In this document: positions 9,127 to 16,989 of the stretch, piece by piece | Layout of the letters: each line of letters begins with the position of its first letter | How positions within the stretch are numbered: position 1 is the stretch's first letter | Source of the DNA: Candidatus Thioglobus sp. | GTDB lineage: Bacteria > Pseudomonadota > Gammaproteobacteria > PS1 > Pseudothioglobaceae | Direction of reading: 5' to 3' | DNA length: 64,000 nucleotides | Assembly: GCA_028352435.1 (NCBI GenBank) | Contig: JAOMMB010000001.1 | Coordinates: 1 to 64,000, forward strand | The notes under the pieces: model-generated | Database searches by the model: none | What the model saw: the letters and a program-made list of their open reading frames with translations, nothing else | What the model was told of the DNA's origin: nothing | Position numbers and translations under genes: made by a program

Positions 9127-10501
9127 TATTAGCAATGTCTATATCATTCATTGCAATGGTGTTATCTTGATAATATTGTTCAGATTCATGGCCTTTTCCA
9201 GCGATGAGCAAGCATTCATTTTCTTTAAGTGTGGTAATGCCAGTTTCAATGGCTAATATTCTATCTTGAATAATATCCACCTCATAGCTATCATCAATAC
9301 CATTGAGAATGTCATGGATGATACTAAGTGGGTCTTCTGAGCGTGGGTTGTCATCCGTTAGGATAATCGTACTGGCTAATTTAGAAGCGATCTTACCCAT
9401 TAAAGCGCGTTTTGTTTGGTCTCGATCCCCACCACAACCAAATATAACTCGAATATTATGCTCTGGGTAATGTGTTTGCAAAGTGGTAATGGCCTTTTCT
9501 ATGGCATCAGGTGTGTGCGCATAATCTACCCAGGCAAAGTGATTATTAATTTTGTGCATGCGACCCATTGGCGGGCTTAGCTTGTCCAATAATGGAATGA
9601 TTTGCGCACTGCTAAAGTTGCGTGCTTTTAATGCTTGATAAGTAGCCAAAATATTCATCAGGTTAAACTCACCTAAGAATGGCACTTCAAATACAAAGCC
9701 ATCAAGTTGAGCAATGAAGCCATACTCAGTGGTTTTAATGTCATTAAAATCCTTAAGAGAATAATTAAACTGTGATTTTTCGCCAGCGGCGTGGCTAAAC
9801 TCTGCATAACTCGGATCGTCAGAATTTAGAATCACACTGTTGAGAGTATCGAGTTGAAAAAGCTTTAACTTTTCAGTTTTATATTGCGCGAGTGATAAAT
9901 GATAATCAAGATGATCTTGTGTGAAGTTGGTTAACACTGCTTGGGTAATATTAAGACCAGCAATACGATTTTGAGCTAAAGCATGTGACGAAACCTCTAA
10001 TGCAACGACTTTGATATTTTTTTGATAATACTCATCTAAAGCGCGATATAGCGTGATTATATCTGGCGTAGTTTGTTTAGATGTTTGTGAATTGTTAGCA
10101 ATACCTAGCGTTCCAATTAAGCCACTCTTTTCACCTAATTGATTAAGTGTTTGCGAGATAAAGTGAGCTACTGAGGTTTTGCCATTAGTACCAGTTACAC
10201 CGATTATTTCTACGTCACAAGCACTTGAGTAAAAAGTTTTTGCAAGGCTGGGTAAGTGCTTTGACAGATTATCTATTCGAATAGTAGGAACACTACAAAC
10301 CGTTTCTTTTGAATCTATCAGTACGGCGATACAACCTCTTTCAATTGCTTGATCGATATAGTCTATACCATGGCTATTTTCACCTTGTAAGGCGATAAAA
10401 ACGTCCCCAGGTTGAATTTTGTGTGAGTTTAGACATAAGCCTTCCACGGTTAAATCAAATTCAGTGGCAGCGATGTTTTGGAGTAGTTGGTTAATTTTCA
10501 T
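9119..10501 (-). CDS. murE: UDP-N-acetylmuramoyl-L-alanyl-D-glutamate--2,6-diaminopimelate ligase
   Basis: The 460-residue Mur ligase adds meso-diaminopimelate to UDP-MurNAc-Ala-Glu. The ATP loop GVTGTNGKTSVAHF lies near residue 110. The C-terminal motif DNPRSEDP contains DNPR, the signature for diaminopimelate rather than lysine. LEVSSHAL and NFTQDHLDYH are further family motifs. It overlaps murF by 8 nt. Unlike the usual dcw order, neither ftsI nor mraY adjoins the pair; soxB lies divergently upstream. Confidence 0.96.
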   Translation of the reverse strand: MKINQLLQNIAATEFDLTVEGLCLNSHKIQPGDVFIALQGENSHGIDYIDQAIERGCIAVLIDSKETVCSVPTIRIDNLSKHLPSLAKTFYSSACDVEIIGVTGTNGKTSVAHFISQTLNQLGEKSGLIGTLGIANNSQTSKQTTPDIITLYRALDEYYQKNIKVVALEVSSHALAQNRIAGLNITQAVLTNFTQDHLDYHLSLAQYKTEKLKLFQLDTLNSVILNSDDPSYAEFSHAAGEKSQFNYSLKDFNDIKTTEYGFIAQLDGFVFEVPFLGEFNLMNILATYQALKARNFSSAQIIPLLDKLSPPMGRMHKINNHFAWVDYAHTPDAIEKAITTLQTHYPEHNIRVIFGCGGDRDQTKRALMGKIASKLASTIILTDDNPRSEDPLSIIHDILNGIDDSYEVDIIQDRILAIETGITTLKENECLLIAGKGHESEQYYQDNTIAMNDIDIANNA

Positions 10502-12678: not shown

Positions 12679-13797
12679 ATGAAATTATTATTTTTATTAC
12701 TATTATTTACTAATATAGCTACACAGGCGGACGTCGTTAAACCTGCCTTAGTAGAAATTTCTATATTTGAAAATAAAACACTTGAGGTGAGAATTGATTT
12801 AAGTCTTGAAGCGGCGATGACAGGTATCGGTACGCAATATAAGAATACCACAGACTCTCCAGATTCAGCTCGTTATGATGAATTGCGAGCGCTTGAGCCA
12901 AATAATTTACGTCAAAAATTTAAAAAATTTGAAACTGAGTTTTTAAATAGCCTTCAATTAAAGATTAATAGCGAGCAACAATTACTGAGTTTAACTCAAG
13001 TTGATATTGATATTGTTGGGTATAAAAAGCGACCTAGAAAAACCACGCTTACTTATATAGCAAAGCTTACTGAATGGCCTAAAGCGCTCTCTTGGCAGTA
13101 CGGAAAAATCCATGGAGATAGCGCCTTACGCTGGCAGATATATCAAGCAAATGAATACAATTGGAGTCAATGGCAATGGCTACGTGGAGGTGATCCTAGT
13201 GGAATGATTCATATTGACCATCCAGAATTTCAAAGCGATACACAGCGTTTTTTACAATTTATTAAAATCGGCTTTGATCATGTTGTTCCATTGGGATGGG
13301 ACCATATTTTATTTATTATTGGTATGGCACTTTCATCTTTATTGTGGCGTCGATTGTTGATACTAGTGAGTGCTTTTACTTTGGCACATACGCTAACACT
13401 TGGTCTGGCCATGATAGAAGTGTTGGAGGTATCAGCAAGGCTTGTTGAGCCGCTAATTGCCTTTTCTATTGCTTATGTGGCAATAGAAAATCTATTAATT
13501 AAGCAATCGATTAAACGTAAAACTGTGATTGTTTTTTTATTTGGACTGGTTCATGGACTGGGCTTTGCCAGTATGCTTCAAGAATTTGAGTTATCACCTG
13601 AATCATTCTTATCAACACTCATAGGCTTTAATGTGGGCGTTGAATTGGCACAAGTCATGATTGTGACTGTTGTGGTTATGTTGCTACTAAGTTTACGAGC
13701 CCTAGGGCGGAATTATCGACAGCTGGTTGTTATACCTGTTTCAGTCTTAATTGCACTCATTGGATTTTGGTGGGGTTTAGAGAGGTTGTTTGGCTAG
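12679..13797 (+). CDS. HupE/UreJ family membrane protein with periplasmic N-terminal domain
   Basis: The 372-residue protein begins with a signal peptide (LLFLLLLFTNIATQA). A soluble domain of about 170 residues follows, then six predicted membrane helices with the HupE/UreJ metal-transport signatures GFDHVVPLGWDHILF, FTLAHTLTL and GLVHGLGFAS. Relatives are thought to move nickel or cobalt; the substrate here is inferred only. No hydrogenase or urease gene is in the window. The ATG at 12679 follows AGAAGAG. The stop codon overlaps that of convergent kdsD in the palindrome CTAG. Confidence 0.85.
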   Translation: MKLLFLLLLFTNIATQADVVKPALVEISIFENKTLEVRIDLSLEAAMTGIGTQYKNTTDSPDSARYDELRALEPNNLRQKFKKFETEFLNSLQLKINSEQQLLSLTQVDIDIVGYKKRPRKTTLTYIAKLTEWPKALSWQYGKIHGDSALRWQIYQANEYNWSQWQWLRGGDPSGMIHIDHPEFQSDTQRFLQFIKIGFDHVVPLGWDHILFIIGMALSSLLWRRLLILVSAFTLAHTLTLGLAMIEVLEVSARLVEPLIAFSIAYVAIENLLIKQSIKRKTVIVFLFGLVHGLGFASMLQEFELSPESFLSTLIGFNVGVELAQVMIVTVVVMLLLSLRALGRNYRQLVVIPVSVLIALIGFWWGLERLFG

Positions 13798-14759
13798 ATG
13801 ATTTTGGCTTGCATTAGCGTGTGTGTATTAATTGCGCCTAAGACCTGGTTGTTCTCATCAACCACAGGTAGAGAATTTAAATTAAACTCATCCATTATCT
13901 GAACAGCAGCCATAGCAGGCTTGTCTGCAAGAATTGTTTTACAATTTGGCACCATTACTTCTTTTATACGCAGACTCTGAATGTCAGAATGTGTTTCTAA
14001 TACACGACGTAAATCGCCATCTGTAAAGATACCTTCTAAATGATTATTGTCTGTGATTAAAACCATACCCAGTGCCTTTTGACTCATCACTAGTAATGCA
14101 TCTAGTAGTTTGGTATCTGCGCTAACCATTGGAATCTCATCACCAGTTTTCATAATATTATGAACAAATGTCAACAGCCTTCTACCAAGTGCACCCGATG
14201 GATGAGATCTGGCAAAATCATCTGGACTAAAGCCTTTATTGGTGAGAATACTAACGGCTAATGCATCACCCATGGCTAGAGCAACGGTTGTTGAAGAAGT
14301 AGGCGCTAGATTATGTGGGCAAGCTTCTTTTTCGACACCAACATTTAAATGAACATCACTAATTTGTCCAATTGAAGAGTTTTGATTGCCAGTCATACTG
14401 ATAATAGACACACCCAAACGCTTAATAACAGGAACAAGCGTCATGATTTCATCAGATTCACCTGAATAAGAAATACAGATGGCTACATCGTTTTGTTCAA
14501 TCATGCCAAGATCACCATGTCCTGCTTCACCAGGATGTACGGCAAACGCAGGTGTTCCAGTAGAGGCAAAAGTTGCAGCAATTTTATTACCAATATGGCC
14601 AGATTTACCCATACCAATTAAAACCACCTTTCCTGTGCAATTTTGAATGAGGCCACAAGCATCAATAAAACCTTGATCAAGTTGTTCGGCTAGCTGAGTG
14701 ACAGCGTGTGCTTCAATCAAAATAACTTGTTTAGCAGTTTCTAATAAGGTGTTAGACAT
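13794..14759 (-). CDS. kdsD: Arabinose 5-phosphate isomerase (KdsD/KpsF)
   Basis: The 321-residue enzyme interconverts ribulose 5-phosphate and arabinose 5-phosphate, the first step to KDO for lipopolysaccharide. An N-terminal SIS domain carries IGMGKSGHIG (Lys52 in the expected active site), SYSGESDE, and the RSHPSGALGRRLL segment with its conserved His. Two CBS domains follow (about residues 205-321), ending with a GIFTDGDLRR-type motif. A degenerate copy of its first 40 or so codons lies at 16357-16461. LpxL- and phosphatase-type genes nearby fit an envelope role. Confidence 0.96.
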   Translation of the reverse strand: MSNTLLETAKQVILIEAHAVTQLAEQLDQGFIDACGLIQNCTGKVVLIGMGKSGHIGNKIAATFASTGTPAFAVHPGEAGHGDLGMIEQNDVAICISYSGESDEIMTLVPVIKRLGVSIISMTGNQNSSIGQISDVHLNVGVEKEACPHNLAPTSSTTVALAMGDALAVSILTNKGFSPDDFARSHPSGALGRRLLTFVHNIMKTGDEIPMVSADTKLLDALLVMSQKALGMVLITDNNHLEGIFTDGDLRRVLETHSDIQSLRIKEVMVPNCKTILADKPAMAAVQIMDEFNLNSLPVVDENNQVLGAINTHTLMQAKII

Positions 14760-14833
14760 AATTAACTTTGATAATAAATATTGTTATTAATTTTATCAAT
14801 TATAAAGCTCGATGAGTAACAAAAAAATTAAAG
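14641..14833. repeat. Diverged direct repeat, copy A (kdsD start, spacer, phosphatase start)
   Basis: This stretch, from about kdsD codon 40 through the divergent spacer to the first few codons of a phosphatase gene, aligns with 16364-16533 in the same orientation. Positions 14790-14832 match 16491-16533 at 38 of 43 bases. The kdsD part matches at roughly two thirds of bases, with one 21-nt in-frame deletion in copy B. Here kdsD is complete and the phosphatase is a stub. Confidence 0.8.
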
Positions 14834-14841
14834 ATAACTAG
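14812..14841 (+). pseudogene. Nine-codon stub of the phosphatase gene
   Basis: ATG at 14812 reads MSNKKIKDN and then TAG. The intact phosphatase gene at 16513 starts MSNEKIK, and both are preceded by nearly the same 22 bp. The stub is the end of copy A of the duplicated divergent region; similarity stops after codon 7. Confidence 0.7.
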
Positions 14842-14939
14842 CTGATTGACTCATATTAGATAAGTATATTTTGTAATGTAATTATTCAATATAATAAGCT
14901 AATAGCAGTCTGTGACTCAAAAAAAGTAAAAGGTAAATT

Positions 14940-15350
14940 ATGCTTTCTAAAGAAAAACTAACCGAATTCTTAAAATCAGAATTCCCTCAAACAAAATGCT
15001 CCGTTGATAAAGTTGGAAATCGGGGTGCTAGCGTTAGACATAAAGTTGGAGTTGATGAATTGCGTCCTGGTGGTACAGTCTCTGGCCCAGTTATGATGGC
15101 TACCGCAGATGTTGCCTTATACATAGCAATTCTTGGTGAAATTGGACTCGTGCCACTTGTCGCAACTACAAGCTTAACTATTAATTTTCTTCGTAAACCC
15201 TCATCAAAAAAAGACATTATTGGTAAGTGTTCATTGATAAAGGTTGGAAGATCTTTAGTTGTTGGTGAAGTTACTTTGTATTCTGATGGCGAAGTAGAGC
15301 CAATAGCCCATGTTGTTGGCACCTACTCAATACCGCCAAAAAGAAGCTAA
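14940..15350 (+). CDS. PaaI-type hotdog-fold thioesterase
   Basis: The 136-residue protein has the single hotdog domain of the PaaI/4HBT family. Conserved segments are RPGGTVSGPVMMATADVALY, which covers the helix and substrate-facing residues, and LTINFLRKP. Such proteins hydrolyse acyl-CoA thioesters. The acyl substrate is unknown. It lies between kdsD and an LpxL-type gene, inside the interval bracketed by the duplicated spacer. A TATAAT at 14890-14895 may be its -10 box. Confidence 0.82.
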   Translation: MLSKEKLTEFLKSEFPQTKCSVDKVGNRGASVRHKVGVDELRPGGTVSGPVMMATADVALYIAILGEIGLVPLVATTSLTINFLRKPSSKKDIIGKCSLIKVGRSLVVGEVTLYSDGEVEPIAHVVGTYSIPPKRS

Positions 15351-15405
15351 TAAGACACTTAAGACTGATAAAGATGTTGTGAGCAATAGTGCTGTGGATT
15401 ATCTT

Positions 15406-16353
15406 TTAATATAAAGAATTTTCACCATCAGGCCGAGTTCGGTACAACTTCATCAGCCACATATATTGCGAAGGGTGCTGTTTAATTAATTGCTCTAATT
15501 GATGATTAAGTTTACAAGCATCATCCTCTGGACTACTACTGGGGTATTCTTCAATAGGAGGCGTAATGACCACCTTATATTTTGACATTTCCTCATCATA
15601 ATAAGAGAAGCAGGGCAAGCTAACAGCTTTCCCTAGTTTAGAAATACGTGCAGGAGTAGTTAACGTAGCCTTTTCTTTACCAAAAAAAGGTGCAAAAACT
15701 GCATTTTTCTTACCAAGATCCTCATCAGGTAAAAAGATAAGTAGCTGTCTTGGAATTAATTCTCTAATTATTTTACGCAACCCTTGTTCACGTGAAATAA
15801 CGAACTTGACATAACGACAGCGACTTTTAGTAATAAGCCAATTGATGACAGGGTTACTGGACTGTTTATAAGAGCCATAACAATCATAATGAAAGCTCAG
15901 AGCTATAGGGGCAAACTCCAGCATAACACTATGTGCAAGTAAGATAATTACACTTTGATTTTTTTCAATCGCTCGATCTATAAACTCCCTGCCCTCGATG
16001 TATACTAGTTTATTTAGACGGCTTCTGGAGGCAAAGAATAATAAACTATAGTCTAATAACGCACAACCGTACCATTGTAAATGTTGCTTGGCAAGCTGAT
16101 GTTGGGCGTGAGTATTTAATGCTGGAAATGCAATGTTGATATTTGTTAAAACGATATGACGTCGTTTTTTATTTTTAGTATAGATAAGACGACCAATAAA
16201 CCGACCAATGAGATGTCTTAAAAACTGAGGTAATAATGATACTAAAAAGAAAATAGCAAGTCCAGTCCAGGTTAGCCAGTAACGTGGGTGAAGAAAAGAA
16301 ACTTTGAAGTTCACTTTAATAGTGTCGCTACTAGACCCTGTTTTGTTAATCAC
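15406..16353 (-). CDS. lpxL: Lipid A biosynthesis acyltransferase (LpxL/HtrB family)
   Basis: The 315-residue protein has an N-terminal membrane anchor (about residues 25-45) preceded by FLHPRYWLTW, typical of LpxL/LpxM. The H-x4-acidic catalytic motif appears as AHSVMLEF. It would transfer a secondary acyl chain to KDO-lipid A on the inner face of the membrane. LpxL, LpxM and LpxP cannot be told apart here. The start is GTG at 16353, the first start codon after an in-frame TGA at 16357-16359 that ends a kdsD-like fragment. Confidence 0.88.
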   Translation of the reverse strand: MINKTGSSSDTIKVNFKVSFLHPRYWLTWTGLAIFFLVSLLPQFLRHLIGRFIGRLIYTKNKKRRHIVLTNINIAFPALNTHAQHQLAKQHLQWYGCALLDYSLLFFASRSRLNKLVYIEGREFIDRAIEKNQSVIILLAHSVMLEFAPIALSFHYDCYGSYKQSSNPVINWLITKSRCRYVKFVISREQGLRKIIRELIPRQLLIFLPDEDLGKKNAVFAPFFGKEKATLTTPARISKLGKAVSLPCFSYYDEEMSKYKVVITPPIEEYPSSSPEDDACKLNHQLEQLIKQHPSQYMWLMKLYRTRPDGENSLY

Positions 16354-16356
16354 AAT

Positions 16357-16461
16357 TCACACTTTTTGAATTAAATTACAGGTATCAATAAAGATTTTCT
16401 CAAGATGTGCCTTGAATTGAGTAACAATATGTTTATCAGATTTCGATGATGTGTCAAACAT
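16357..16461 (-). pseudogene. Degenerate kdsD 5' fragment
   Basis: The minus strand from ATG 16461 reads 34 codons and then TGA. The peptide ends FIDTCNLIQKV, against FIDACGLIQNC in KdsD, and starts M-x-x-T with a shared V-T-Q. Seven codons are missing in between. About 14 of 38 aligned residues are identical, and the DNA matches at about two thirds of positions. It lies in frame with lpxL, just two codons upstream of its GTG, and could be a leader for that gene. Confidence 0.75.
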
Positions 16462-16533
16462 GAATAACTTTACAATAGATATAATGTTTGATTTTATCAA
16501 TTATGAAAGTCAATGAGTAACGAAAAAATTAAA
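16364..16533. repeat. Diverged direct repeat, copy B (kdsD fragment, spacer, phosphatase start)
   Basis: This is the partner of 14641-14833. Here the phosphatase is complete and kdsD is a fragment. A plus-strand TATAAT at 16480-16485 points to the phosphatase; the corresponding bases in copy A are changed. Conversely, copy A keeps a minus-strand TATAAT (14804-14799) toward kdsD, which is CATAAT in copy B. Confidence 0.8.
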
Positions 16534-16989
16534 ATTTTATTCGTATGTATGGGTAATATTTGTCGATCCCCAACTGCTGAAGCCACCTTTAGGTTACAAG
16601 TAGATAAGCGCGGTCTTGGCCACTTATTTGAAATTGATTCAGCAGGGACGCATGCTTATCATATAGGTGAGAAGCCAGATTCAAGATCACAAATAGCGGC
16701 AACTAAGCATCAGGTGGATTTATCTAGTCAGCGAGCGCGTCAAGTTCATGAGAGTGATTTTTATTATTACGATTATGTCTTTGCTATGGATGAATCTAAT
16801 TTGGCCAATATGAAAAATATTTGTCCTAAAGAGTTTCAGCATAAACTGTCTTTAATGCTAGATAACATACCAAATAATAAAATAAAAAGTGTGCCTGACC
16901 CATATATTGAAGGGCGATTTGATGACGTATTTGAAATGCTAAATCGCGCCAGTAATTTTTTATTAGACAGCTTATCGAAAAAGGCCTAA
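16513..16989 (+). CDS. Low-molecular-weight protein-tyrosine phosphatase
   Basis: The 158-residue protein has the P-loop C-x5-R-S as CMGNICRS, with Cys12 and Arg18. The general-acid loop is PDPY near residue 128, and paired tyrosines (FYYYDYVF) lie mid-protein. The family dephosphorylates tyrosine kinases of polysaccharide export (Wzb type) or other substrates. No Wzc/Wza genes are visible, so the target is unknown. A near-copy of its first seven codons and upstream DNA lies at 14790-14833. Confidence 0.93.
   Translation: MSNEKIKILFVCMGNICRSPTAEATFRLQVDKRGLGHLFEIDSAGTHAYHIGEKPDSRSQIAATKHQVDLSSQRARQVHESDFYYYDYVFAMDESNLANMKNICPKEFQHKLSLMLDNIPNNKIKSVPDPYIEGRFDDVFEMLNRASNFLLDSLSKKA

Follow-up and report, generated by a model that had tools for sequence, protein, structure and literature searches.

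In insertion-duplication, the single-crossover integration of the Campbell type, an insert comes to lie between direct copies of a native homologous segment, and if the segment carries no more than the 5' ends of two divergent genes, the event restores both as complete genes and leaves reciprocal stubs beside the insert. In homology-facilitated illegitimate recombination, a subject of PMC5361080 and PMC2884548, a short homologous anchor serves to import foreign genes without a mobile element, with remnants staying behind; of the two ends joined, one is homologous and the other is not. In duplication-degeneration-complementation (subfunctionalisation), the copies each keep a different part of what their ancestor had. 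Here we describe a locus of Candidatus Thioglobus sp. that recalls each of these, in which a thioesterase gene and an acyltransferase gene lie between two copies of a divergent promoter; in the literature we found no paper treating kdsD together with Thioglobus.

The window, that is, the whole stretch of 64,000 nucleotides analysed, belongs to an assembly (G000) of 0.93 Mb that is 67% complete. On its minus strand lies an intact kdsD gene (13794-14759) encoding an arabinose-5-phosphate isomerase of 321 aa, with SIS and two CBS domains (Pfam) and a match to the NCBIfam kpsF subfamily above cut-off. On the plus strand lies an intact gene (16513-16989) for a low-molecular-weight protein tyrosine phosphatase of 158 aa (Pfam LMWPc), followed 3' by rpsL and then rpsG. 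Between the two are a paaI-like hotdog thioesterase gene (14940-15350, plus strand, 136 aa, Pfam 4HBT) and, convergent to it, an lpxL-type lipid A acyltransferase gene with a GTG start (15406-16353, minus strand, 315 aa, Pfam Lip_A_acyltrans). A first-pass annotation had claimed that the divergent promoter is duplicated around this pair, and the duplication is real. When 14600-14900 was compared with 16320-16580, the gapped local alignment spanned exactly 14641-14833 (copy A) and 16364-16533 (copy B), with a score of 130; 1,000 dinucleotide-preserving shuffle pairs gave a mean of 33 (sd 5.9, maximum 72), which corresponds to a Gumbel p of ~4e-10. Copy A comprises the first ~39 kdsD codons, the divergent spacer and the first 7 phosphatase codons, and copy B a kdsD stub, the spacer and the first 7 phosphatase codons. 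An independent repeat finder returned a single ungapped direct repeat of 65 nt with 80% identity (14768-14832 and 16469-16533). The repeat pair is also significant in the sister genomes G009 (p ~2e-8) and G008 (p ~8e-8) and is therefore not the assembly error of one MAG. The two copies are homologous; a third was not found in this assembly, where the other matches are short and at background level.

The stubs are reciprocal, as had been read from the translations. Next to copy A a phosphatase stub of nine codons, MSNKKIKDN followed by a stop, occupies 14812-14841 on the plus strand, and an equivalent stub exists in G008 and G009. Next to copy B a kdsD stub of 34 codons plus TGA occupies 16357-16461 on the minus strand, in frame with lpxL; it translates as MFDTSSKSDKHIVTQFKAHLEKIFIDTCNLIQKV followed by the stop, and it has the pattern FID-x-C-x-LIQ in common with KdsD (FIDACGLIQ and FIDTCNLIQ). 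The alignment of A with B contains five indels in the kdsD part, of sizes 3, 3, 3, 9 and 3, every one a multiple of three.

The order without the insert is preserved in relatives. Six genomes of the same genus (G002, G003, G004, G006, G007 and G011) have kdsD directly divergent from the phosphatase gene with a gap of 49-52 bp and neither paaI nor lpxL between them, which is the arrangement expected if an ancestral divergent pair was opened; in most other genera examined the gap is ~50-62 bp, and somewhat larger in genus g3. Whichever the gene order, the genus-level relatives checked share the SoxB-like and HupE-like genes on the kdsD side, and rpsL-rpsG lies beyond the phosphatase gene wherever the contig reaches that far. 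KdsD is 91-92% identical to its counterparts in G002 and G004 and 98% in G008 and G009, and the phosphatase is 82-84% identical to those of G002 and G004. The three insert-bearing genomes, all of related marine sulfur oxidisers, form a clade beside G004/G002 in the gene tree of kdsD and in that of the phosphatase; both intact genes are therefore native. The arrangement of the window is common only to G008 and G009, of which G009 carries the complete set and G008 carries paaI and a fragment of lpxL. Elsewhere in the family these native genes vary in other ways: kdsD is apparently internally deleted in one genome (G058:C2:92922-93301), and the phosphatase gene resembles a decaying pseudogene, with internal stops and fragments, in several genomes of genus g2 (G045:C1:190077, G049, G057), which are small and single-contig.

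In other lineages the same site holds a different gene. In eight genomes (G010, L144 4378-5698; and G016, G032, G026, G036, G015, G017 and G025, of genera g5, g6 and g7), another gene lies between kdsD and the phosphatase gene, with a gap of ~1.32 kb. Three of these loci were read from end to end, and there the gene is a large membrane-protein ORF (~400-430 aa) on the kdsD strand that, from its sequence, looks like a transporter of the YeeE/YedE type. Seven of these loci were searched for the duplicated segment and none has it (p 0.19-1.0), which ties the duplication to the paaI-lpxL event alone. These loci also bear on the reading that A and B resemble one another merely because both are AT-rich promoters: the region is indeed AT-rich, but the seven loci with the other gene show no repeat, and the shuffles, which preserve composition, refute chance similarity, leaving it a negligible probability.

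The two genes inside the repeats look foreign in origin, judging from their distribution and nearest relatives. The paaI gene is present in 3 of 83 family genomes, and its nearest relatives lie outside the family at 65-69% identity. For lpxL, a counterpart at 89% was found in G009 alone among the 36 family genomes searched, and the other lpxL paralogues of the family are distant, at 24-31% identity over most of the length or up to 38% over a third of it. Across 369 genomes of the class, the best matches outside the family are 50% for lpxL (G156) and 65% for paaI (G315), in different genomes, and around the matches examined in distant genomes the two genes are not adjacent. The best plasmid match of paaI, at 69%, is on a Salinimonas plasmid, with no lpxL adjoining; the best plasmid match of lpxL is ~34%, and no relative of lpxL was found among viral contigs. 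Thus a donor cassette was not found in class-wide genomes, plasmids or viral contigs. The rarity of paaI and lpxL in the family, their nearest kin outside it and the ancestral divergent order together argue that a convergent cassette entered the native pair, and they support the earlier proposal that an ancestral divergent pair was duplicated or split when paaI-lpxL came in.

Both acquired genes are maintained, since between the window and G009 dN/dS is ~0.18 for paaI (0.036/0.208) and ~0.15 for lpxL (0.051/0.343). The lpxL product is covered over its whole length by Lip_A_acyltrans (PF03279, profile positions 3-295 of 295, E 2e-67), and it matches the solved lipid A acyltransferase 5kn7. The HX4(D/E) motif is catalytic in the LpxL/LpxM lipid A acyltransferases, and it is present here as AHSVMLE, aligned to PHFGTWE of 5kn7. 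Scores against the named LpxL, LpxM and LpxP subfamilies of NCBIfam (249, 247 and 245 bits) fall below the cut-offs of 337, 298 and 336, and we therefore leave the acyl-chain specificity unassigned. The acyltransferase gene at this locus is an extra copy that was acquired, since another lpxL-type gene (27% identical) lies elsewhere in the genome, at C1:128609. The suggestion that the duplication explains a lipid A acyltransferase inside an envelope locus was thus partly right: the acyltransferase gene is flanked by a Kdo-pathway isomerase gene on one side and, on the other, by a phosphatase gene that sits beside rpsL-rpsG. In other family genomes a second resident lpxL-type paralogue has in-frame stops in the matched stretch (G002:C1:1411637, G005:C8:13430, G006:C34:10546, G018:C12:12258 and G034:C49:6794).

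We hypothesize, with a probability of about 0.7, that a foreign convergent paaI-lpxL cassette was inserted at the divergent kdsD/phosphatase promoter by insertion-duplication, and that the two copies of the promoter then specialised. The cassette would have landed in the promoter in the ancestor of the three species, by a single crossover, presumably of Campbell type, involving DNA that was homologous over a short stretch to both gene starts. The outcome would be ~190 bp of native segment in direct orientation on each side, both native genes whole and each with its own promoter, and the reciprocal stubs left flanking the cassette. What is found agrees with such an integration: native direct repeats on both sides, the ancestral order in relatives, and insert genes whose affinities are foreign. 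As direct repeats flank the insert, we also considered a transposon-like event whose target-site duplication would be very long. Transposons are known to duplicate targets of some 2-14 bp, whereas the repeat here is ~190 bp; the insert consists of paaI and lpxL only, with no transposase, and inverted repeats are absent from its ends. We rejected this candidate, which is most improbable.

The first-pass annotation had further held that each copy lost the gene that the other kept. This is true of an insertion, but equally of a tandem duplication. A tandem duplication could have come first, with the convergent inner phosphatase and kdsD copies then replaced by paaI and lpxL. The strands of paaI and lpxL are those of the lost phosphatase and kdsD genes, respectively, the products are alike in length (136 aa for paaI against 158 aa for the phosphatase, 315 aa for lpxL against 321 aa for KdsD), and the stub boundaries fall early in both inner genes. 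However, this course requires two steps, the 95 genomes searched show no kdsD-phosphatase tandem array as an intermediate and, in the family, a single full-length kdsD in each genome, and past the ends of the repeat no convincing remnant of phosphatase or kdsD is seen. We regard it as unlikely.

The age and kinship of the two copies were addressed with a tree of the segment. Across the window's genome, G008 and G009, copy A is monophyletic (99/99) and so is copy B (100/100), which makes the duplication older than the split of these genomes; on this tree the insertion event dates to the common ancestor of the three species. Both A and B fall inside the G004/G002 group (89/94). The spacer distance between A and B is 0.25, and that of A or B to G004 is 0.20-0.21, although distances from so short a segment, part of which is under no constraint, are unreliable. 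If the homologous segment came from the recipient itself, A and B should be each other's closest relatives. Since A and B are not closer to each other than either is to G004/G002, the second copy may have arrived with the cassette from a sister lineage, by homology-facilitated illegitimate recombination with the start region of the donor's kdsD/phosphatase pair as anchor. By blast, G002's single copy matches B (83%) somewhat better than A (77%), and PMC5361080 and PMC2884548 treat the capture of foreign DNA through homologous anchors. Against such a donor, the tree leaves A and B ungrouped, but constraining them to one clade is not rejected and carries no likelihood cost (p-AU 0.47). We consider a sister-lineage donor possible but doubtful.

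Under insertion-duplication each copy would start with a complete bidirectional promoter, and the spacers indicate that the copies have since diverged in what they retain. In copy A, the consensus scan predicts a kdsD promoter on the minus strand at 14771-14799 (TTGATA, 17 nt, TATTAT; 10/12). In the alignment of 14 spacers, the phosphatase-facing -10 of this copy is lost, with TATTGT in place of TATAAT at 14779-14784 (plus strand). In copy B, the TATAAT at 16480-16485 (plus strand), predicted to be the phosphatase -10, is the one conserved in all aligned single-copy relatives. The phosphatase-facing TATAAT is thus found in none of three A copies, in all three B copies and in 8/8 single-copy relatives. 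Facing lpxL in copy B, the scan predicts a promoter on the minus strand at 16472-16500 (TTGATA, 17 nt, TATTGT; 9/12). We infer from these predicted promoters that the copies have specialised: copy A, which has lost its phosphatase-facing -10, would have kept the promoter facing kdsD, and copy B would have kept the phosphatase-facing -10; the kdsD half of copy B lies directly upstream of lpxL. This other half has probably been captured, as a predicted promoter, by the acquired acyltransferase gene. Between the window and G009 the copy-B spacer is identical at 50/51 bases, and synonymous divergence is ~0.34-0.48 in kdsD, the phosphatase gene and lpxL. In G008, where lpxL has been deleted, the lpxL-facing -35 of copy B has changed from TTGATA to TTTATA. 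The deletion in this genome (L142, ~9195-9350) leaves a ~26-nt internal fragment of lpxL (IFLPDEDL), which joins the end of paaI to the kdsD stub.

The kdsD stub ends one codon before the GTG of lpxL, with TGA ATT GTG in the window and TAA GTT GTG in G009. The G009 stub has a 12-nt in-frame deletion (30 codons against 34), yet the frame, the position of the stop and the GTG are conserved. Comparing the window with G009, we counted 10 differences in 90 sites (11%) of the stub, against a synonymous divergence of 0.34-0.48; in a hand count of the aligned codons, most of the changes alter the amino acid. The stub thus shows no constraint at the protein level, and any retention would be in the role of a leader rather than of a protein. 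Between G008 and the window 15% of the stub sites differ, close to the synonymous rate of this pair (0.13-0.16 for kdsD and the phosphatase), unlike the comparison with G009; a relative-rate test for faster change of stub and spacer in G008 after the loss of lpxL gave p 0.07, which is suggestive only. A structured RNA leader in the stub region was considered and rejected, as the folding is no better than that of shuffles (z 0.70) and there is no Rfam match. Read by eye, the sequence before the lpxL GTG has no apparent Shine-Dalgarno-like element, which makes reinitiation after the stub plausible. On the insertion-duplication reading, the copied kdsD promoter would drive lpxL, whose translation would reinitiate behind the stub. 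From the sequence we tentatively suggest that the truncated kdsD start in copy B could be the retained promoter and leader ORF of lpxL, the Kdo-pathway promoter providing transcription and the leader coupling translation. If true, such a capture of leader and promoter would link core biosynthesis to a lipid A modification of foreign origin.

The locus shows with unusual clarity how foreign genes can come to lie in a divergent promoter while both native genes stay unbroken: the promoter is doubled. The state before the event is preserved in the relatives, the state after it in the window's genome and G009, and a state of secondary loss in G008, which makes the proposed partition of the promoter and the proposed capture of the leader directly testable. 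Compared with described systems, the locus resembles insertion-duplication in having its insert between direct copies of a native homologous segment, and in that both divergent genes, of which the segment contains no more than the 5' ends, are intact and reciprocal stubs are present; it differs in that no vector or mobility gene is left and that the copies are old and diverged. As in homology-facilitated illegitimate recombination, a short homologous anchor would have imported foreign genes without a mobile element and left remnants; in that process one of the two joined ends lacks homology, whereas here the homologous segment is found at both ends. As in duplication-degeneration-complementation, the ancestral bidirectional promoter seems to have been divided between the copies, one half to each, although here this follows from one lost -10 together with consensus scans. 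The locus adds a clear and well-preserved instance to a type of genome change that is already known, and is not a new system.
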